Source: an uncultured eubacterium 1-6 (GTDB lineage: Bacteria > Bacillota > Clostridia > Lachnospirales > Lachnospiraceae). From it: 32,857 bases of DNA. Where the stretch lies: positions 226,343 through 259,199 of the forward strand of contig CAIFEZ010000001.1 in assembly GCA_903789595.1 (NCBI GenBank), written 5' to 3'. Position numbers and translations under genes: made by a program. The notes beneath the pieces are model-generated. The model made no database searches, was not told the DNA's origin, and saw only the letters and a program-made list of their open reading frames with translations. How positions within the stretch are numbered: the stretch's first letter is position 1; the number at the start of each line of letters is the position of its first letter. Positions 4,908 to 24,586 of this stretch are shown piece after piece.

Positions 4908-5081
4908 ACTGTATAAGCTGCGCGGCGCTCCGCACGTCGTGCTCTCGCGCCGCTACAGGCATTCGGATTTCGCGCTGACGCGCTTCATCCTCATACCTGT
5001 TGCCTTCGAAATCGCGTCCAGTCTCTTACGCGCGCTTCGCGTGCGACGAGCCTGTCTGCGTTTTCGAAGAGCTTATGCAGT
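4908..5081 (+). repeat. interspersed palindromic repeat, full copy A (174 bp)
   Basis: The ends are imperfect inverted repeats: ACTGTATAAGCT on the left (4908-4919) and AGCTTATGCAGT on the right (5070-5081), 11 of 12 complementary. The body is roughly 90% identical by eye to the copy at 24731-24903 and contains several nested stems. Single-base indels between copies break any shared reading frame, so it is not a gene. No clear target-site duplication is visible. It ends 25 bases before the start codon of the serine hydrolase gene. It resembles a miniature inverted-repeat element, but no transposase is nearby. Confidence 0.85.
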
Positions 5082-5105
5082 ACATTATACATCATCAGGA
5101 GGCAT

Positions 5106-6974
5106 ATGGCAGAATTTAGACTTTCATTTATTCAACTTCTTTTTCGGATACTGGCGAGACAGACGGGGCAGATCGGCAAGATCGATTTTGTGCCGCAGAA
5201 GCCGCATTTTGAGGGAACGCCCATCGAGCAGCCTTTTGAGCGGGCGACTCCGGAGTCGCAGGGGATTTCCTCGAATCATATCAGAGAGTATCTGATTTCT
5301 CTTCACGATGATCCGGAGGCGGAGATCCAGCAGGCAATGGTTATCCGGCATGGCAAGGTGATCTGTGAATGCAGCTTTGCGCCGTATCAGAGGGGCATGT
5401 GGCATGTAACGTATTCGATGTGCAAGACTTTTACGGGGATCGCGACCGGACTGGCTATTCACGAAGGCCTTCTGACGCTGAATGAGGGACTGGATGAGAT
5501 TTTTCCCTCGAATATCAAACTTCTGAGCCGTTTCAGCCGAAAGCGTGTTACAATTCGGGATCTTCTCCAGATGACGAGCGGTGTGGATTATTCTGAATCC
5601 GGCGCTCTGGAGAGCAGTGACTGGTGCACGAATTTCATGTCGGCGGGATTTAAGTCGGATCCGGGGACGAAGTTTGACTATAATTCGATGAATTCCTTTA
5701 TGCTTGCCGCGGCAATCCAGGTGAAGAGCGGGCAGACCATGTTCGATTTTCTGAAGGACCGGATCTTTGATCCGATGGGGATCCGTGAGATCTTCTGGGA
5801 AAAGAGTCCGATGGGATACACGAAGGGCGGATGGGGCTGTTTCATCCGGCCGGAGGACGCCTGTAAGCTTGGTCAGCTGCTGCTGAACAAGGGAGAATGG
5901 AACGGAAGACAGCTTGTGCCGAAGCACTGGGTGGAGGAGATGACGAGATCTCATGTGGACAATGGCAAGTTCGGCTACGGCTATCAGCTCTGGATGGAGG
6001 AACGGCCGGGCGGTTATGCCATGAACGGCCTGTTCGGACAGGATGTGATCTGTTATCCGGATCTGGACATGATCATCATGGTTAACGCGGGCAACCGGGA
6101 GCTGCTTCAGGAGGGAAATCTGACCGAGATCATGCGGAGATACTGGGGAGCTTCCTTTGTGGCTTCCGATAAGCCTCTTCCGGAGAATCCGTCAGCCCTG
6201 CACAAGCTGATGAGCACTGTCGCAGAGTACAGCGGAAATGACACGTTCGGCGGTTCCGGTGTCGGAAGCGCAATTCTCGCAGAGGCGGCGAAACAGAACC
6301 TGGCCGAGATACCGGTGTATCACAAGACGCGGAGGAGAAGAAAGGGATGGGGCCTCTGGTCAAAGAAGTCCACCGTGATGTCTCCTTCAGAGATGCTGGA
6401 TGTTCTGGACGCACACACCTATCTGATGGAGAAGGGAAGAGCAGGTATTTTCCCGCTGGTATGTCAGGTGACGCATAACAACTATACCGACGGAATCCGA
6501 AAGATCGGTTTCCAGAGGATTGAGGACACGATGGTCATCCTCCTGTATGAAGGAGAGGATGTTCATCACGTGAAGGTCGGATTCGAGAGGCCGGAGGTCA
6601 GCGAAATCGTCCTGCACGGAGAACCGTATTATATCGGGACGACCGGACGGATCGCGACAGATGAATATGACCGCGTGGTCCTGCTTCTGGAGATTGCCTT
6701 CCTGGAGGAAGCCTGCACACGGAAGATCAACCTCTATTTTGAGGGAGAGGATGTTCTGGTGCGCTTCTCGGAGACTCCCGGAGACGCGGTGATTGCGGAT
6801 GCCATCCGGTACTCCGGAGAGGATCCGGACTTTCTGAAGCTTCCGTTCATCCGTCAGCTTGTGGAGGAGGGAGGCAGGGATATCCTGGATGAATCCCTGC
6901 AGGCGGCAATTCATCCCAGAGATATCGGACATGTCATGTCGGTTCCGGATGAAAGCTCCTTAGAAGGAATCTGA
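5106..6974 (+). CDS. serine hydrolase of the beta-lactamase/class C fold with a large C-terminal extension
   Basis: Predicted serine hydrolase of 622 aa. The N-terminal part (about residues 45-345) has the class C beta-lactamase/penicillin-binding fold: nucleophile and base in S104-M-C-K107 (SxxK), Y192-N-S at the YxN position, and a late G-rich strand (YAMNGLFGQD) in place of KTG. These residues are shared by D-Ala-D-Ala peptidases, esterases and beta-lactamases, so activity cannot be named. The remaining ~270 residues contain a lysine/arginine-rich patch (RRRRKGW) and a mixed domain I do not recognise. No signal peptide is convincing, although residues 6-18 are hydrophobic. AGGAGG at 5097-5102 fixes the start. 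It is followed after 36 bases by the ABC gene, so the two may share a transcript. Confidence 0.8.
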   Translation: MAEFRLSFIQLLFRILARQTGQIGKIDFVPQKPHFEGTPIEQPFERATPESQGISSNHIREYLISLHDDPEAEIQQAMVIRHGKVICECSFAPYQRGMWHVTYSMCKTFTGIATGLAIHEGLLTLNEGLDEIFPSNIKLLSRFSRKRVTIRDLLQMTSGVDYSESGALESSDWCTNFMSAGFKSDPGTKFDYNSMNSFMLAAAIQVKSGQTMFDFLKDRIFDPMGIREIFWEKSPMGYTKGGWGCFIRPEDACKLGQLLLNKGEWNGRQLVPKHWVEEMTRSHVDNGKFGYGYQLWMEERPGGYAMNGLFGQDVICYPDLDMIIMVNAGNRELLQEGNLTEIMRRYWGASFVASDKPLPENPSALHKLMSTVAEYSGNDTFGGSGVGSAILAEAAKQNLAEIPVYHKTRRRRKGWGLWSKKSTVMSPSEMLDVLDAHTYLMEKGRAGIFPLVCQVTHNNYTDGIRKIGFQRIEDTMVILLYEGEDVHHVKVGFERPEVSEIVLHGEPYYIGTTGRIATDEYDRVVLLLEIAFLEEACTRKINLYFEGEDVLVRFSETPGDAVIADAIRYSGEDPDFLKLPFIRQLVEEGGRDILDESLQAAIHPRDIGHVMSVPDESSLEGI

Positions 6975-9636: not shown

Positions 9637-10611
9637 ATGAGAAAACGAAGTAAATTTCGGATGCTGTGTGTGCTTCTTGTACTGTCTGTATCCATGACCA
9701 TGGCGGGCTGTACGCAGTATAAGGGGCGGATGATGTTCGGTACGGGAGGAACGGCCGGAACGTACTACTCCTACGGAGGCGTTCTGGCGCAGTATATGAA
9801 GAACTACGCGAATGTCCGTGTTACGGCGGTTTCGACCGGCGGTTCCAAGGTGAATATTCAGAGCATCCAGGACGGCGATTTTCAGCTCGGTTTCACACAG
9901 TCAGACGTGATGTCGTACGGCTGGGACGGCACCCGCGCTTTTGAGAAGGACGGAGGAACACACTCCTTCCGTGTGCTCGGCGCGCTGTACGCAGAGACCG
10001 TTCAGCTGATCACGATGGATACGGATATCAATAGCATATCGGATTTGAAGGGAAAGAGCGTATCGATCGGCGAAGCCGGATCCGGCGTCTATTTTAACGC
10101 GATCGATGTGCTTGCCGGAGCGGGACTTACCATCGATGACATCAAGCCGCAGTACCAGTCTTTTGAGGACTCCAAGGAGTCCCTGAAGGACGGCAAGATT
10201 GACGCCGCCTTTATCGTCGCGGGAGCTCCTACCTCGGCGATTACAGAGCTCGCGACCACCAACGGCGTGAGCTTTGTGAACATTGACGGAGAGGTCCGGG
10301 ATTCCATCATGGCAAAATGCCCGTACTACGAATCCTACTCCATCCCCGCCGGCACCTATCCCGGTCAGAAAAAGGACATAGACACGATTACCGTGCTCGC
10401 AACCGTGATTGTGTCGGCATCCGCGGACGCGGATACGGTCTATGACCTGACAAAGGCGATTTTCTCCAACGCGAAGGAGATCGCGAAGGAGAATGCGAAA
10501 GGTGCGGAACTGAATCTTGACACGGCGACAAGCATTACCACAGTCCCGTATCATGAGGGCGCGGCAAGGTATTACAAAGAGCAGGGATACACGGTGAACA
10601 CGGAGGAATGA
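9637..10611 (+). CDS. TAXI-family TRAP transporter substrate-binding lipoprotein
   Basis: Extracytoplasmic solute receptor of 324 aa that captures a substrate for the TRAP permease encoded next. A basic N-terminus and hydrophobic stretch end in the lipobox MAGC, so the mature protein should begin at Cys25 and be lipid-anchored. Typical TAXI-family features follow: FGTGGTAGTYYSYGG near the mature start, then AVSTGGSKVN and QLGFTQSDV. TAXI systems usually carry carboxylates or amino acids such as glutamate; the substrate here is not determined. GAGGGAGAG at 9618-9626 precedes the ATG. It is followed after 61 bases by the permease gene. Confidence 0.92.
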   Translation: MRKRSKFRMLCVLLVLSVSMTMAGCTQYKGRMMFGTGGTAGTYYSYGGVLAQYMKNYANVRVTAVSTGGSKVNIQSIQDGDFQLGFTQSDVMSYGWDGTRAFEKDGGTHSFRVLGALYAETVQLITMDTDINSISDLKGKSVSIGEAGSGVYFNAIDVLAGAGLTIDDIKPQYQSFEDSKESLKDGKIDAAFIVAGAPTSAITELATTNGVSFVNIDGEVRDSIMAKCPYYESYSIPAGTYPGQKKDIDTITVLATVIVSASADADTVYDLTKAIFSNAKEIAKENAKGAELNLDTATSITTVPYHEGAARYYKEQGYTVNTEE

Positions 10612-10672
10612 GCAGAATGCCGTTCGGATGATTCAAAACCATCCGGACGATTCAAATGAGGAGGAAAGAAAA

Positions 10673-12658
10673 TTGAGTGATTCAAAAGAAAATAAAAAGC
10701 CGGAGACTTCCGGCCCGGCGGCGTCTGCCGAGGGCAGTCAGAGCGCGATGCAGGAAGACATCGATGCTCTGATGCGGAAGTACGACCGGGAATCCAACAC
10801 CAGGATATGGACCGGTAAGCCGAAAATCATGATCACCGTGATTCTGGCGGCGTTTTCCATCTGGTGCATCTATGTGACGCTGTTCGCAACCTTTCTGGAG
10901 GAGATTCGCCTGACCTCGTTTCTCGGGCTTGTCATCCTGATGGGATTTCTGATCTATCCTTCGAAGAAGGGGATTCAGAAGGCGAATTTTATGCCGATTG
11001 GAGATATCATTTTCATGATTGCCGGTGCCGCCGCGTTTTTCTATTTTACGTTTTCGGCGAATGCGATCATCAATCAGGGAACCCGGTTCCAGTGGTATCA
11101 GATTATCATCGGCATCGTGGGAATCGCGGCACTCGTGGAAATCACCAGAAGGTGTGTGGGACTTCCGATTCTGATCGTCGCGGCGATTTTTGTCATCTAT
11201 GCGCTGACCTACGGACTGACAAACCCCGACTTTTTCGGCCGGCTGAAATATCTGATCCGGAATCTGTTCTATACAAAGGAAGGAATTTTTTCCACGCCGG
11301 TCAACGTATGTTCGAAGTACATCGTCGTGTTCATTATCTTCGGCGCGTTTCTGGAGCGGACAGGAATTTCCAATTTCTTTATTGATCTGGCAAACTGCGT
11401 GGCCGGAAGATTTGCGGGAGGACCGGCAAAGGTTGCGGTCATTTCCTCGGCGCTCTGCGGCATGGTTTCCGGATCGTCGGTCGGCAACACGGTGACGACC
11501 GGTTCCGTGACAATTCCGATGATGAAGAAGACGGGCTACCGGCCGGAATTCGCAGGAGCGGTAGAAGCCGCGGCATCTACCGGAGGCCAGATTATGCCGC
11601 CGATCATGGGGGCCGCCGCGTTCCTGATGGCCGACTTTGTAGGCGTGCCGTATTCGGATATCATCGGCAGAGCTGTGCTTCCCGCTATTCTGTATTTTCT
11701 GGGAATTTTCATCTCGGTTCACCTGGAGGCGAAAAAACTGAACCTTCACGGCATTCCGAAGGAGCAGCTTCCGCACGCGGGCAAACTTATGAAAAAAATC
11801 TATCTGCTGCTTCCGCTGGTGATGCTTGTCATCTGGGTGTCCGGCAATTTCATGACAATGCAGCGGGCGGCTTCTCTGGCAATTGTGCTCTCCATTGTGG
11901 TCAGCCTGTTCGATAAGGACAACCGCATCACTCCGCGGAAAATCGTCGACGCACTGGAAGCCGGAGGAAGGAGCACTATCACAGTGGCGGCGGCCTGCGG
12001 CGTGGCAGGCATCATTTCCGGGTCGATTACGATGACGGGACTCGCAAATGATCTGATCAATGCGATCGTCGGCGTGGCCGGAAACCGGCTGATCGTCGCG
12101 CTTCTTCTGACGATGGTCTGCTGCATCATTCTGGGAATGGGCGTGCCTACCACGGCAAACTACTGTATTATGGCCGCGACGACCGCTCCGATTCTGATCC
12201 GGATGGGCGTGCCGATTCTCGCCGCACATTTCTTCGTCTTCTATTTCGGCATTGTGGCGGACATCACGCCTCCGGTTGCACTCGCCGCCTACGCGGGATC
12301 CGCGATCGCGAAGAGCAATCCTATGAAGACAGCGTTCAACGCCTCGAAGCTTGCAATTGCGGTATTTATCGTGCCCTATATGTTCTGTTACAACCCGGCC
12401 ATGCTGCTGATCGATACATCTGCACTGACCGTCGTCCGGATCGCGATTACCGCCGCGATCGGCATCTTCGGCATTGCTGCAGCTTTTGAAGGGTACTGCT
12501 TCGCCGAAATGAAGCCGCTGATGAGAGTGGTCATCGCGGCGGGCGGGCTTCTGCTGATCCATCCCGGCACGCTCACCGATGTGGCAGGGCTTTGTATCGT
12601 TGTGATTTGTCTGTTGATTCAGTATGGAAAGCGCAGGAGAGCTGTCGCGGGTTCGTGA
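10673..12658 (+). CDS. TRAP transporter permease, fused small and large subunits (4TM/12TM type)
   Basis: Ion-driven uptake permease of 661 aa that works with the TAXI lipoprotein upstream. A hydrophilic N-terminus of about 45 residues is followed by a short block of helices (DctQ-like) and then a long block of about twelve helices (DctM-like) in one chain, the usual form for TAXI systems. GSSVGNTVTTGSVTIP, STGGQIMPPIMGAAAF and GMGVPTTANYCIMAATTAP are typical transport-core motifs. I chose the TTG at 10673 because AGGAGG at 10659-10664 stands eight bases before it; the in-frame ATG at 10628 has no ribosome site. It probably forms an operon with the binding protein and the kinase-like gene. 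Confidence 0.92.
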   Translation: MSDSKENKKPETSGPAASAEGSQSAMQEDIDALMRKYDRESNTRIWTGKPKIMITVILAAFSIWCIYVTLFATFLEEIRLTSFLGLVILMGFLIYPSKKGIQKANFMPIGDIIFMIAGAAAFFYFTFSANAIINQGTRFQWYQIIIGIVGIAALVEITRRCVGLPILIVAAIFVIYALTYGLTNPDFFGRLKYLIRNLFYTKEGIFSTPVNVCSKYIVVFIIFGAFLERTGISNFFIDLANCVAGRFAGGPAKVAVISSALCGMVSGSSVGNTVTTGSVTIPMMKKTGYRPEFAGAVEAAASTGGQIMPPIMGAAAFLMADFVGVPYSDIIGRAVLPAILYFLGIFISVHLEAKKLNLHGIPKEQLPHAGKLMKKIYLLLPLVMLVIWVSGNFMTMQRAASLAIVLSIVVSLFDKDNRITPRKIVDALEAGGRSTITVAAACGVAGIISGSITMTGLANDLINAIVGVAGNRLIVALLLTMVCCIILGMGVPTTANYCIMAATTAPILIRMGVPILAAHFFVFYFGIVADITPPVALAAYAGSAIAKSNPMKTAFNASKLAIAVFIVPYMFCYNPAMLLIDTSALTVVRIAITAAIGIFGIAAAFEGYCFAEMKPLMRVVIAAGGLLLIHPGTLTDVAGLCIVVICLLIQYGKRRRAVAGS

Positions 12659-17901: not shown

Positions 17902-17987
17902 GCAACGACATGTATTCGCTGCGGAACGCCTTGCTGGGTTTACCCTGAATGCTTCAGCAGTAACACGTTAGAAAGAAGGTGGTGAGA

Positions 17988-18746
17988 ATGAGTATGGCAC
18001 AGAAGCTTGTGGAAGATCTTAAGGTCCAGGACGCATTTGTGATCCCTGTCTTCGGGGGCATCCATATTGCCGAATCCGTTGTGGTTTCCTGGGTCGTCAT
18101 GGGTATTCTTGTAGCACTGGCACTCTGGCTGACTCATGGAATGAAAGTTCGGAACCCGGGGAAGAAACAGGTTGCAGTTGAAGCGTTTGTAACCTGGCTT
18201 GAGAAGACGATCAAGGGTATGCTCGGTCCCGATGCGGGAGAGTATGCGGAATATCTGATGACGGTCATTATGTTCATCGGTCTTTCCAATATTATCGGAC
18301 TGCTTGGAATGAAGCCTCCGACGAAGGACCTGGATGTGACGGCCGCGCTTGCCATAATGAGCATTGTACTGATTGAGGCGGCAGGTATTAAACGGAAGGG
18401 CGTTCTGGGCTGGCTGAAGAGCTTCACCCAGCCGGTCGGAATCGTTACGCCGATCAACATTCTTGAGGTGTTTATCCGTCCGCTTTCCCTTTGCATGCGA
18501 CTCTTCGGCAACGTACTCGGATCATATGTTATCATGACACTGATCGAGAATCTGATTCCAGTAGGCGTTCCGCTTATCTTCAGCTTCTACTTTGATATCT
18601 TTGACGGAATGATTCAGGCATATGTATTTGTATTCCTTACCTCGCTGTTCATAGCCGAGGCGGCAGAGATCACTCCGGAAGAGCCGAAGAAGAAAAAAGT
18701 CAGAAAGAATAAGAACAAAAAGAAAGCTGTTGCCGTTGCCGCATAA
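17988..18746 (+). CDS. atpB: F-type ATP synthase subunit a, with lysine-rich tail
   Basis: Membrane subunit a of the F0 sector, 252 aa, which forms the proton half-channels beside the c-ring. The essential arginine is R171 in SLCMRLFGN, and the final helices contain the family pattern IFDGMIQAYVFVFLTSLFIAEA. After that, instead of ending, the protein adds a tail with about a dozen lysines (EEPKKKKVRKNKNKKKAV), expected on the cytoplasmic side. I chose the ATG at 17988, five bases after AGGTGG at 17977-17982; ATG at 17994 is a near alternative. First gene of the operon: no atpI or atpZ precedes it. Confidence 0.95.
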   Translation: MSMAQKLVEDLKVQDAFVIPVFGGIHIAESVVVSWVVMGILVALALWLTHGMKVRNPGKKQVAVEAFVTWLEKTIKGMLGPDAGEYAEYLMTVIMFIGLSNIIGLLGMKPPTKDLDVTAALAIMSIVLIEAAGIKRKGVLGWLKSFTQPVGIVTPINILEVFIRPLSLCMRLFGNVLGSYVIMTLIENLIPVGVPLIFSFYFDIFDGMIQAYVFVFLTSLFIAEAAEITPEEPKKKKVRKNKNKKKAVAVAA

Positions 18747-19008
18747 TCTCGCGTGTCATCTTGACAGAGAAGAAGATTGTGTATCCCGATGCCGGAGAAG
18801 AATAGAAATGTGCATCAAAGATGTCGGCACAGAAGGATTGCATATTGCAGACAATTTGGAATCAGCGGCAGATGGCCGTACGGTCAGCTGTTTATGAAAA
18901 GGTCAACTATGATATCGGATGAAATCCGTGTATGGGCTTCCGGATTTATTCCGAAGAAAAATGATGAATTTCCGGTTTGATGCCGGAAGATTACAGGAGG
19001 AAATAAAA
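18747..19008 (+). other. 262-bp spacer between atpB and atpE without a credible gene
   Basis: Unusually long gap inside an ATP synthase operon. A frame can be read across part of it, but it lacks a ribosome site and any family resemblance. TTGACA at 18761-18766 has only a poor -10 partner. A small stem, TTCCGG/CCGGAA, lies at 18970-18987 just before the strong AGGAGG of atpE; it could affect the high expression needed for subunit c or mark an mRNA processing site. Confidence 0.4.
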
Positions 19009-19221
19009 ATGACAGCACTTGGAGCAGGAATCGCAGCACTCGCTTGTATCGGCGCAGGACTTGGAATCGGTATCGCAACCGGACACGCAACAGACGCTAT
19101 CGCAAAGCAGCCGGAAGCCGACAACAAAATCATGAGAAACCTTCTTCTCGGATCCGCACTTGCAGAGGCAACGGCTATTTACGGTTTCGTACTGGGTCTG
19201 ATGATTCTGTTTGTAGCATAA
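19009..19221 (+). CDS. atpE: F-type ATP synthase subunit c
   Basis: Proteolipid of 70 aa, two helices joined by the polar loop KQPE (33-36), which assembles into the rotor ring. The ion-binding carboxylate is E53 in LAEATAIYG. The residues typical of sodium-binding rings are absent: the helix 1 glutamine position is isoleucine (GLGIGIATG) and the residue after E53 is alanine, not serine, so proton coupling is inferred. ACAGGAGG stands eight bases before the ATG, the strongest ribosome site in the operon, as expected for the subunit needed in most copies. Confidence 0.96.
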
Positions 19222-19307: not shown

Positions 19308-19793
19308 ATGTTACGTTTTGATTTAAATGTTTTATGGACGGTCATCGATCTTCTGATTCTGTATTTTCTTCTGAAAAAGTTCCTTTTCGGAAGAGTACAC
19401 AAGATCCTCGATCAGAGAGCAAAGGACATTGAGAAGTCCTACACGGACGCGGAGAACACGCAGAAGGATGCCGATGCTCTCAAGACAAAGTATGAGGAAA
19501 CGATCAAGAGCATTGATGATGAGAAAAAGAAAGCTGCCGACGAGGCCAGAGCGAAGGCCAACATGGAATACGACCGTATCGTAGATTCGGCCAAGGCAGA
19601 CGCTGACAAGATTATTAATGATGCCAGAGCCAAGGCAGCTGCAGAGACGACAGACCAGAAGCACAAAGCAGAGGAAGACATTGTCGAGATGGTTAAGGAT
19701 GCCGCTGCCAGAATCGCAGAGGCTGAGGACGACGACAAGATGTATGATGCTTTCTTGAAGAAGGTCTCAGCGAATAAAGATAAGAAAGACTGA
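19308..19793 (+). CDS. atpF: F-type ATP synthase subunit b
   Basis: Peripheral stalk subunit of 161 aa: one N-terminal transmembrane helix (about residues 5-25, VLWTVIDLLILYFLLKKFLF) followed by a long charged alpha-helix for the right-handed coiled coil. Its length is normal, so the delta N-terminal domain that is missing from this operon has not been fused here. AGGAGA precedes the ATG. It ends four bases before the start of the fused delta-alpha gene, so translation is probably coupled. Confidence 0.93.
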   Translation: MLRFDLNVLWTVIDLLILYFLLKKFLFGRVHKILDQRAKDIEKSYTDAENTQKDADALKTKYEETIKSIDDEKKKAADEARAKANMEYDRIVDSAKADADKIINDARAKAAAETTDQKHKAEEDIVEMVKDAAARIAEAEDDDKMYDAFLKKVSANKDKKD

Positions 19794-19797
19794 CACT

Positions 19798-21612
19798 ATG
19801 GGTGAGAACAAAACAATAAAGTTGGACGAGAACGGAAAGCTTCATGCGGTTCTTCGCTGCGTAACCGAGCCGAGCGGAGAGCAGAGACAGAAATTCATTC
19901 AGTTTCTGAAAAACAAGTATGAGCTTGAAGACACGGATCAGGTAAATCTTGAGATCGTTCAGGATCCGGATGTACACGGCGGTTTCATTCTCGACATCGG
20001 AAGCGACGAGTACGACTGGAGCACCCGCGGAAGAGAGAGACAGTTTGAGAACCAGATCAACGATGCCAGAGCAAAGGCTGCGAGAGAAAAGAGCCAGGAA
20101 GGCATCATGGAGATCATGCGTGCGGCCGTTGAGCAGTTCCATCTCGAGGCGGAACAGTCGGAAGTCGGTCATGTTCTGACGGCCGGCGATGGAATTGTAA
20201 CCATCACAGGTCTGGATCATGTGCAGTACGGTGAGATTCTGGTCTTCGAAAACGGCGTCAAGGGAATGGTACAGAACATCGGAGAGGACGGAATCGGCGC
20301 GATTCTGTTTGACGCGGAGGGCACCATCGGTGAGGGAACCCGTGTCACCGGTACCGGAAAGCGCGCGGGTATTGCCTGCGGCGACGGATATCTCGGCCGT
20401 GTCATCGATGCGCTGGGCAATCCCATCGACGGAGGAGCACCGGTAAAGGGTGATGAATACCGTGCGATCGAGCAGCCGGCGCCGGGAATCATCGACCGTC
20501 AGCCGGTTACGGTTCCGCTGGAGACCGGTATTCTGGCGATTGATTCCATGTTCCCGATTGGCCGCGGACAGCGTGAGCTGATCATCGGCGACCGGCAGAC
20601 AGGTAAGACATCCATCGCTATGGACGCTGTTCTGAACCAGAAGGGCAAGAACTGCTACTGCGTCTATGTCGCAATCGGACAGAAGGCATCTACGGTAGCC
20701 AGCATTGTAAATACACTGAAGAAAAATGACGCGATGTCCTATTCGATTGTTGTGGCATCTACCGCGGCAGATCCGGCACCGCTTCAGTACATTGCGCCTT
20801 ATGCCGCGACATCAATTGCCGAGTACTTCATGCACAGAGGCAAGGATGTTCTGATCATCTATGATGACCTGAGCAAGCATGCCGTTGCATACCGTACGCT
20901 GTCCCTGCTTCTCGGAAGATCTCCGGGACGTGAGGCATATCCGGGCGATGTATTCTATCTGCATTCCAGACTTCTCGAGAGATCCTCGAGGCTGTCGGAG
21001 AAGCTCGGCGGAGGATCCATCACCGCATTGCCGATCATTGAGACGCAGGACGGCGATGTTTCCGCGTACATTCCTACCAATGTCATTTCCATCACGGACG
21101 GACAGATTTTCCTGGAGTCCGATCTGTTCTTCGAGGGACAGAGACCGGCCGTCAACGTCGGACTTTCCGTATCCCGTGTAGGAGGAGCAGCGCAGACAAA
21201 GGCCATGAAGAAGGCAGCAGGTTCCCTGCGTATCGATCTGGCGCAGTTCCGCGAGATGCAGGTGTTCACCCAGTTCAGCTCTGATCTGGACGAGGCAACC
21301 CAGAATCAGCTGAAGCAGGGAAATGTCCTGATGGAGCTGCTGAAGCAGCCTCTCGGTCATCCGCTTTCGACGGCTGACCAGGTCATCACGCTCTGCGTTG
21401 CCGAGCACAAGAAGATGATCAATGTTCCGGTAAAGAACGTGAAATCCTACCAGAAGGAAATGCTTGCGTTCTTCGCCGACAGGTATTCGGACATTGTCGA
21501 GGAGATCAACAAGAAGGGACAGCTTCCGGACGAACTTTCCGAGAGAATCCTGACGGCAGCGGATGAGTTTGACGCGGCGTACGCAGAAGCACACAAGCCA
21601 AAGAACGCATAA
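19798..21612 (+). CDS. atpA: F-type ATP synthase alpha subunit fused to a delta (OSCP) C-terminal-like domain
   Basis: Protein of 604 aa, about 100 longer than normal alpha. Residues about 10-80 look like the C-terminal half of delta/OSCP: a short strand (LHAVLRCVTE), a helix (SGEQRQKFIQFLKNKYEL), a strand (VNLEIVQDPDVHGGFILDIG) and the closing DEYDWSTRGR, equivalent to the family's DGSVRGRL. From about residue 95 a normal alpha follows: EGIMEIMRAAVEQF as the N-terminal helix, Walker A GDRQTGKTS, and a typical C-terminus. No separate atpH exists between atpF and here, and the six-helix N-terminal half of delta is not seen anywhere in the operon. The frame is continuous and the junction shows no sign of a sequencing artefact. 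Start is four bases after atpF with only a weak ribosome site. Confidence 0.93.
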   Translation: MGENKTIKLDENGKLHAVLRCVTEPSGEQRQKFIQFLKNKYELEDTDQVNLEIVQDPDVHGGFILDIGSDEYDWSTRGRERQFENQINDARAKAAREKSQEGIMEIMRAAVEQFHLEAEQSEVGHVLTAGDGIVTITGLDHVQYGEILVFENGVKGMVQNIGEDGIGAILFDAEGTIGEGTRVTGTGKRAGIACGDGYLGRVIDALGNPIDGGAPVKGDEYRAIEQPAPGIIDRQPVTVPLETGILAIDSMFPIGRGQRELIIGDRQTGKTSIAMDAVLNQKGKNCYCVYVAIGQKASTVASIVNTLKKNDAMSYSIVVASTAADPAPLQYIAPYAATSIAEYFMHRGKDVLIIYDDLSKHAVAYRTLSLLLGRSPGREAYPGDVFYLHSRLLERSSRLSEKLGGGSITALPIIETQDGDVSAYIPTNVISITDGQIFLESDLFFEGQRPAVNVGLSVSRVGGAAQTKAMKKAAGSLRIDLAQFREMQVFTQFSSDLDEATQNQLKQGNVLMELLKQPLGHPLSTADQVITLCVAEHKKMINVPVKNVKSYQKEMLAFFADRYSDIVEEINKKGQLPDELSERILTAADEFDAAYAEAHKPKNA

Positions 21613-21641: not shown

Positions 21642-22631
21642 ATGTCAGCAACACGTGAAATCAAGGAAAGAATTGATAGCGTCAATAATACACTGAAGAT
21701 TACGAGCGCTATGTACATGATTTCTTCTACAAAAATGAACAACGCGCGTAAAGCACTGGCAAATACCGAACCGTATTTTTATGCGCTGCAGGATATGTTC
21801 GGACGGGTGCTCCGTCACCTTCCGGACGGCTACAGCCATCCGTATCTGGATGAGCGTGAGGTGGCTTCCAAGAGCGATCTCCGCCGGGCGATTATCTGCG
21901 TGACCGCAGATAAGGGACTTGCAGGCGCATACAACCACAATGTACTGAAGCTGACAGAGGAGAAGCTGAGACCCGCGAACAATGACATGCTTTATGTGGT
22001 CGGCGAGGTCGGCCGTCAGTATTTCGCGAATCACAACGTAAATGTAGACGGTGCTTTTCACTACACTGCCCAGAAACCGACCCTCTCCAGAGCACGTTCG
22101 ATTGCATACCGGATGCTGGATCTGTTCGAGCGCAAAGAGGTGGACGAGGTATATATTATCTACACCAGAATGAAGAACTCCATGGAAACCGAGACGGAGA
22201 TCCGACAGCTTTTGCCGCTGATCCGTCTGAACGAGGAGTTTTTCAGGCAGAACATGACGAAGCTCAGCGGAGTGTATCAGGAGACCTTTGACATGGAACC
22301 GGGACCGGATCTTCTTCTGAACAACATCATTCCCGACTTTATCAACGGTTACATATACAGTGCACTTGTGGAATCGTACTGTGCGGAGCACAGTTCCCGT
22401 ATGCAGGCGATGGACGCCGCAAATAAAAACGGCAGCGAACTGGTCCAGGAGCTGAGCATTCAGTACAACCGGGAGCGTCAGGCTCAGATCACACAGGAGA
22501 TTACGGAGGTCTGCGCAGGCGCGAAGGCGCGGGCGCTGCAGCAGAAGAAACATAAGAAGAAAAATATGCCGAAGTTTGAAAACCAGCAGGGAGAGGATCT
22601 CGATACTTTCCAGGCCGGCGCGCTTCATTAA
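21642..22631 (+). CDS. atpG: F-type ATP synthase gamma subunit with extended C-terminus
   Basis: Central rotor shaft subunit, 329 aa against about 285-290 usually. The N-terminal helix (SATREIKERIDSVNNTLKITSAMYMISSTKM) and the C-terminal helix (YNRERQAQITQEITEV) are typical. Where other gamma chains stop, this one continues for about 35 residues: a basic stretch (QQKKHKKKNMPKF) and an acidic end. In the folded enzyme the C-terminal helix points into the alpha3beta3 bore, so such an extension would sit near the top of F1 and needs room there. AGAAGGAAA precedes the ATG. Confidence 0.94.
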   Translation: MSATREIKERIDSVNNTLKITSAMYMISSTKMNNARKALANTEPYFYALQDMFGRVLRHLPDGYSHPYLDEREVASKSDLRRAIICVTADKGLAGAYNHNVLKLTEEKLRPANNDMLYVVGEVGRQYFANHNVNVDGAFHYTAQKPTLSRARSIAYRMLDLFERKEVDEVYIIYTRMKNSMETETEIRQLLPLIRLNEEFFRQNMTKLSGVYQETFDMEPGPDLLLNNIIPDFINGYIYSALVESYCAEHSSRMQAMDAANKNGSELVQELSIQYNRERQAQITQEITEVCAGAKARALQQKKHKKKNMPKFENQQGEDLDTFQAGALH

Positions 22632-22687: not shown

Positions 22688-24079
<1,392 letters not shown>

Positions 24080-24169: not shown

Positions 24170-24586
24170 ATGGCAGAAGCCAAATATTATCTCAGAGTCA
24201 TCGCATCGGATAAAGCCTTTTTCGGCGGTTACGTCACAAGTCTCAAGGTTCCCACCATTGACGGGAGGGAAGGCTTCCTTGCGCATCATTCGCAGATAAT
24301 GCTTGCAATCGTGCCCGGGGAGATCGATTTTGTTACGGCAGACGGCAAAAAGGTAACGGCTGTCTGCGGCAACGGCTCCATGATCTTCGCCAATAACCGC
24401 GCGACGATCCTGGTGGATACCTGTGAGACCCCGGATGAGGTCGACAAGCATCGTGCCGAGGAGGCGCTGGAGCGTGCAAAGGAGCGTCTGCGTCAGAAGC
24501 AGAGCCTGCGTGAATACAAGATGACGCAGGCGTCTATTGCGCGTGCGCTTTCACGGCTGAAATTCAAGGACAAGTATATCAACTGA
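24170..24586 (+). CDS. atpC: F-type ATP synthase epsilon subunit
   Basis: Rotor subunit of 138 aa that links gamma to the c-ring and can inhibit ATP hydrolysis. The N-terminal beta-sandwich contains the family pattern TIDGREGFLAHHSQIMLAIVPGEI and NGSMIFANNRATILVDT; two C-terminal helices follow (DKHRAEEALERAKERLRQ and TQASIARALSRLKF). GAGGTG lies before the ATG. Last gene of the operon, closed by a strong terminator 60 bases later. Confidence 0.95.
   Translation: MAEAKYYLRVIASDKAFFGGYVTSLKVPTIDGREGFLAHHSQIMLAIVPGEIDFVTADGKKVTAVCGNGSMIFANNRATILVDTCETPDEVDKHRAEEALERAKERLRQKQSLREYKMTQASIARALSRLKFKDKYIN

Follow-up and report, generated by a model that had tools for sequence, protein, structure and literature searches.

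The closest described relative of the enzyme reported here is man-made. Ueno et al. (PMC12229609; PDB 9jc1) deleted residues 2-104 of the delta subunit of Bacillus PS3 FoF1 and joined the remainder through a short linker to the N-terminus of alpha, reasoning that the delta N-domain lies on the three-fold axis and limits the enzyme to one peripheral stalk. Relative to gamma, the product had 2.2 times the a and 1.8 times the b of wild type, cryo-EM showed up to three stalks, and H+/ATP was 5.8 +/- 0.4 against 3.0 +/- 0.2. The proportion of particles with three stalks was extremely low on the grids, however, which the authors attribute to loss during preparation, and pump activity was lower than wild type. 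They also noted that Acidaminococcus fermentans has a natural delta-alpha fusion lacking the N-domain, with UniProt G4Q3K6 and A0A1I2C5T3 as further cases, and called a multi-stalk structure highly likely. In mycobacteria, delta is instead fused to b (for example, 7jg5 chain d), and the N-ATPases have no separate delta in their gene order beta-epsilon-a-c-b-alpha-gamma (PMC5709465).

We provide evidence that an alpha subunit of the PS3 design, carrying the delta/OSCP C-terminal domain on its N-terminus, is encoded by an uncultured member of the Lachnospiraceae and by many of its relatives, such that the natural motor may carry up to three stalks and channels instead of one. A sequence-only reading had proposed that this alpha subunit carries a delta C-domain, that the delta N-domain is missing, that no atpH exists, and that three delta-C domains are therefore present per enzyme. 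Our analyses support these core claims, the last provided that the fused chain is the only alpha. Its contention that these domains would face only two b chains is an assumption, given that the engineered enzyme binds up to three b2 stalks, and the delta-C/alpha fusion it did not know to be described had been both engineered and noted in Acidaminococcus in the 2025 paper.

A fused alpha subunit in the ATP synthase operon

The window, by which we mean the entire 32,857-nucleotide stretch analyzed, lies in a 3.66-Mb, 66-contig genome of 99.25% completeness. The nearest records in our genome scan, which may leave out records of the window's own genome, are Eubacterium sp. UBA4343 and a Lachnospiraceae MAG (97% identity over the fused protein). 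The operon reads a-c-b-(deltaC-alpha)-gamma-beta-epsilon on the + strand, and each subunit is matched by its Pfam family. Subunit a (atpB, 17979-18746; PF00119, E 5.9e-44) ends in a lysine-rich tail (EEPKKKKVRKNKNKKKAVAVAA). Subunit c (atpE, 19009-19221, with the ATG at 19009 chosen by us as the start) is matched by PF00137 at residues 34-96 of the longer frame 18919-19221 (E 1e-17). Subunit b (atpF, 19308-19793; PF00430, E 4.8e-15), the only PF00430 match in the genome, bears a C-terminal YDAFL motif. Downstream of the fusion gene lie gamma (atpG, 21642-22631; PF00231, E 1.5e-91), which has a charged C-terminal extension, beta (atpD, 22691-24079; TIGR01039, 801.7 bits against a cutoff of 462.85), and epsilon (atpC, 24170-24586; PF02823 and PF00401), which keeps the helical domain whose counterpart was removed from the engineered enzyme. 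Elsewhere in the window, at 9637-12658, is what appears from its sequence to be a TAXI-type substrate-binding protein followed by a fused TRAP transporter permease.

The fusion gene (19798-21612, +) encodes 604 residues. Residues 7-86 (19816-20055) match Pfam OSCP PF00213 from profile position 95 to 171 of 172, so that the match starts where the delta N-domain would end. The score is 27.6 bits (E 3.6e-6; curated cutoff, 22.3) for the whole protein and 31.7 bits (E 2.1e-7) for the first 95 residues alone. The motifs VHGGFILDIG and DWSTRGR lie at residues 59-68 and 73-79, respectively. A linker (residues 87-99; 20056-20094) separates the last helix of the delta C-domain from the N-terminal helix of alpha, and residues 100-596 (20095-21585) constitute an ordinary alpha subunit (TIGR00962, 727.7 bits; cutoff, 484.45). 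A scan of the whole genome gave no other PF00213 match. PF00006 gave five matches: this alpha and beta, a pair on another contig (C4:73635-78504) that we read as V/A-type A and B, and a weaker match that we read as Rho. None of the seven subunits reaches the cutoff of the alternate F1F0 models TIGR03305, 03306, 03321, 03322, 03323, 03324, and 03166 (alpha, 590.3 against 750.5; beta, 599.6 against 752; a, 118.6 against 302.1; b, 68.4 against 224.7; c, 48.3 against 130.85; gamma, 89.2 against 282.35; epsilon, 20.4 against 100.1), and the gene order differs from that of the N-ATPases. Unlike in the mycobacterial fusion, b is a separate open reading frame.

Structure prediction agrees with the profile evidence. 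An AlphaFold model of the fused protein (25-row alignment; mean pLDDT, 76.2) gives a strand at residues 15-21, a helix at 27-40, strands at 49-55, 63-67, and 70-73, a long helix at 76-97, and a helix at 100-112 that leads into the alpha barrel. The best Foldseek match of this model is 9jc1, whose chains rank first, second, and ninth. The N-domain modeled alone (112 residues; mean pLDDT, 71.2, with block means of 75-86 over the first 60) is predicted to fold as strand-helix-strand-strand-strand-helix. Its first 42 PDB matches are all chains of ATP synthase entries (best E, 1.9e-4; TM, 0.42-0.52 by query length); we take these to be delta, OSCP, or b-delta chains, as their molecule names confirm for part of them, and 9jc1 follows at ranks 43 and 44. 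7jg5 chain d is also a Foldseek match of this domain. A sequence profile of 25 fusions, comprising 24 natural relatives and the window, likewise finds 9jc1 first in the PDB (E 3.7e-10), aligned over delta-C, linker, and alpha helix, and then delta chains.

Distribution and history of the fusion

A scan of genome contigs with the whole fused alpha gave 53 loci with several architectures around alpha. Some have a separate delta and alpha (Blautia, Sellimonas, Clostridium asparagiforme, and others). Nine have a full delta fused to alpha in frames of 673 to 702 residues; one of these, locus L045, matches OSCP profile positions 24-172 (E 2.5e-19). Others are of the window type, with delta-C fused to alpha in frames of about 580 to 640 residues. 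In three loci (L070, at 4977-6569, L073, and L074), the alpha frame (530 to 531 residues, one cut by the contig end) keeps only a short helical remnant, with no delta in the operon and, for L070, no OSCP match. Finally, in one locus, L088 (4491-6824; the same place as in L169), b, delta-C, and alpha form a single 778-residue protein in which PF00430, PF00213, and the alpha domains all match; its OSCP match runs from profile position 54 to 171, the first part lying on the b tail. In three full-fusion operons (L045:3049-3075, L046:4690-4715, and L091:1200-1230), the TGA stop codon of b overlaps the GTG start of delta-alpha (GTGA), which suggests coupled translation of b and alpha.

Among 396 sampled genomes of the window's family (completeness of 90 or more), at least 76 have a fused frame: 49 of the delta-C type, 26 of the full-delta type, and 1 b-deltaC-alpha. 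The fused copy appears to be the only PF00213 match of the genome in 15 of 49, 10 of 26, and 1 of 1, respectively. In a second set of 33 genomes that hold our loci, the completeness of which is not known, 14 of 17 deltaC-alpha genomes show no other delta, all 6 full-fusion genomes have a second, separate delta, and the 3 remnant genomes each have one separate full delta elsewhere. In a phylum sample of 398 genomes, two genomes of other families also carry delta-C on alpha: L163 (4812-6638, +; OSCP E 3.6e-13), which keeps the motif GGFVVHSGDRLIDASVRGR, and L164 (3700-5535, -; E 1.3e-11). Catenisphaera adipataccumulans (Erysipelotrichaceae) carries a deltaC-alpha operon nested in the Lachnospiraceae clade together with a second, separate delta, which suggests horizontal transfer.

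We inferred a tree with IQ-TREE from 90 alpha cores out of 141 extracted, leaving out near-copies, partial frames, and some canonical rows. The Lachnospiraceae-type fusions fall in one 59-row clade (100/99.9) that also holds 7 separate-delta rows. The data do not reject the fused rows as a clade of their own (p-AU 0.508), so one fusion event there is possible, and the nested separate-delta rows (Blautia, Sellimonas, C. asparagiforme, and others) may be misplaced in the tree or may have split again. A single clade of all rows of this clade without the delta N-domain is rejected (p-AU 0.0013), and counting losses without regain gives 10 (9 to 12 over 200 bootstrap trees), although horizontal transfer and tree error could change this number. 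L163 and L164 form a separate pair (100/100), and joining them with the Lachnospiraceae fusions is rejected (p-AU 0.0098), indicating an independent origin, also without delta N. The AU tests ask for groups named before the tree is seen, whereas ours were named after a first tree. In the rows inspected, the delta N-domains of the full fusions and of the separate deltas of this clade share a gap of about seven columns against other deltas. The N-domain of the full fusions is about as conserved as the C-domain (mean identity, 0.43 and 0.47; separate deltas of the clade, 0.40 and 0.42; other deltas, 0.33 and 0.36) and so does not look decayed. Our reading is that fusion came first, with the N-domain still in use, followed by repeated loss of the N-domain.

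The C terminus of b offers a further line of evidence. In this clade, b ends in a short motif, typically YDxFL, and a narrow pattern finds it in 31 of 31 full-fusion rows, 32 of 35 deltaC-fusion rows, and 13 of 14 separate-delta rows of the clade but in 0 of the 3 delta-less rows, whose b ends earlier. The three deltaC rows that miss the pattern still end in a similar stretch (DEFLKFAE, RQFLEAAE), and the counts include near-copies (for example, L093 and L165 are one place, as are L091 and L166). Elsewhere the pattern finds 2 of 19 separate-delta rows, 0 of 2 in L163/L164, and 1 of 17 rows without an extracted alpha core; by eye, b there ends in other, similar helices. The delta-less rows form one clade, so this is one paired loss of delta-C and the b tail. 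It fits the contact of the b tail with delta-C that is kept in the engineered enzyme. The L088 chain could not be used to model this contact, because our alignments set b rows and delta-C rows on the same columns.

How many stalks the enzyme may hold

In our favored reading, to which we assign a probability of roughly 0.6, the covalent link to alpha replaces the hold of the delta N-domain, which in a normal enzyme sits on the three-fold axis, binds alpha N-termini, and allows one stalk. Each of the three alphas therefore presents its own anchor for the C-terminal ends of b, and the enzyme can bind more than one b2-a peripheral stalk, up to three; each extra a subunit would add H+ per turn. That more than one site is occupied in the living cell is an inference; we found no stoichiometry or H+/ATP measurement for a natural fused enzyme, and how many anchors are filled depends on the supply of a and b. 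Because full delta-alpha fusions keep a conserved N-domain, the axis may still be occupied in those relatives, and fusion alone does not imply many stalks. More tentatively still, b as part of the alpha chain in the L088 lineage would fix three b chains per enzyme. The L088 genome has no other PF00430 or PF00213 match, and the only ATG/GTG/TTG close to the junction of b and delta-C is a TTG without an evident SD site, so b is found there only as part of the fused chain, unless it is cut. L088 is, however, a single metagenome assembly, and a search of 60 relatives with its N-terminus showed no second case.

The strongest alternative, which we consider possible but less likely, is a single-stalk enzyme in which only one of three delta-C domains binds b2 because a and b are made at ordinary 1:2 ratios, the other two being idle. 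The window's operon has one a and one b gene in the usual order, and fused enzymes with a presumably occupied axis persist among the full delta-alpha relatives. Against this, the engineered enzyme held two stalks on average, and repeated loss of the N-domain after fusion fits release of the one-stalk limit, though it fits mere redundancy of the N-domain as well.

It is improbable that the cell also makes plain alpha, by an internal start or by cutting, such that one fused and two plain alphas assemble. The window has in-frame ATGs at residues 104 and 107 behind a weak AGGAAGG-like site (score of 4 in our scan), and ATG/GTG/TTG codons in this stretch have a match of five or more bases to the SD consensus more often than in the alpha core (18 of 141 against 54 of 1200), which speaks a little for this scenario. 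Across 62 fused loci, however, 13 have such a site, at varying positions, 12 have no ATG/GTG/TTG in the stretch at all, and the window's candidate ATGs are not conserved; cutting was not addressed by these data. That the N-terminal domain is a chance or decayed resemblance, or that delta is supplied from elsewhere, is very unlikely: although the whole-protein Pfam score is only 5.3 bits over the cutoff, a full-delta intermediate (E 2.5e-19) and L163 (E 3.6e-13) match OSCP, the predicted fold matches, five columns are invariant in 25 rows (among them G54, F55, and D65 of the aligned stretch), and no other delta was found in the genome.

Implications for the Lachnospiraceae

The engineered design was published as an approach that differs from nature, with three natural records noted. 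Here, the same step is seen in many genomes, with full delta-alpha intermediates, parallel losses of the N-domain, an independent origin, and a b-deltaC-alpha chain, which makes the question directly testable in named strains such as Eubacterium cellulosolvens, Shuttleworthella satelles, and C. adipataccumulans. Although the architecture itself was already known, our literature searches, which did not extend to subscription journals or bioRxiv, showed no paper on delta-alpha fusions in Lachnospiraceae. The c subunit of the window has no glutamine in TM1 and, with AEATAIY in TM2, lacks the serine after the carboxylate; as these appear to be the usual ligands of Na+-type rings, H+ is the likely ion. 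The genome has two RnfC-type matches over the cutoff, one about 1.4 kb beyond the pair read as V/A-type A and B and the other at C4:13358-14638, and no match to PF00346, the complex-I 49-kDa family that we take to cover Ech-type hydrogenases too. With extra a subunits, the enzyme would work at a lower proton-motive force with more H+ per ATP, and we infer that such a motor would suit a fermenter with a low proton-motive force.
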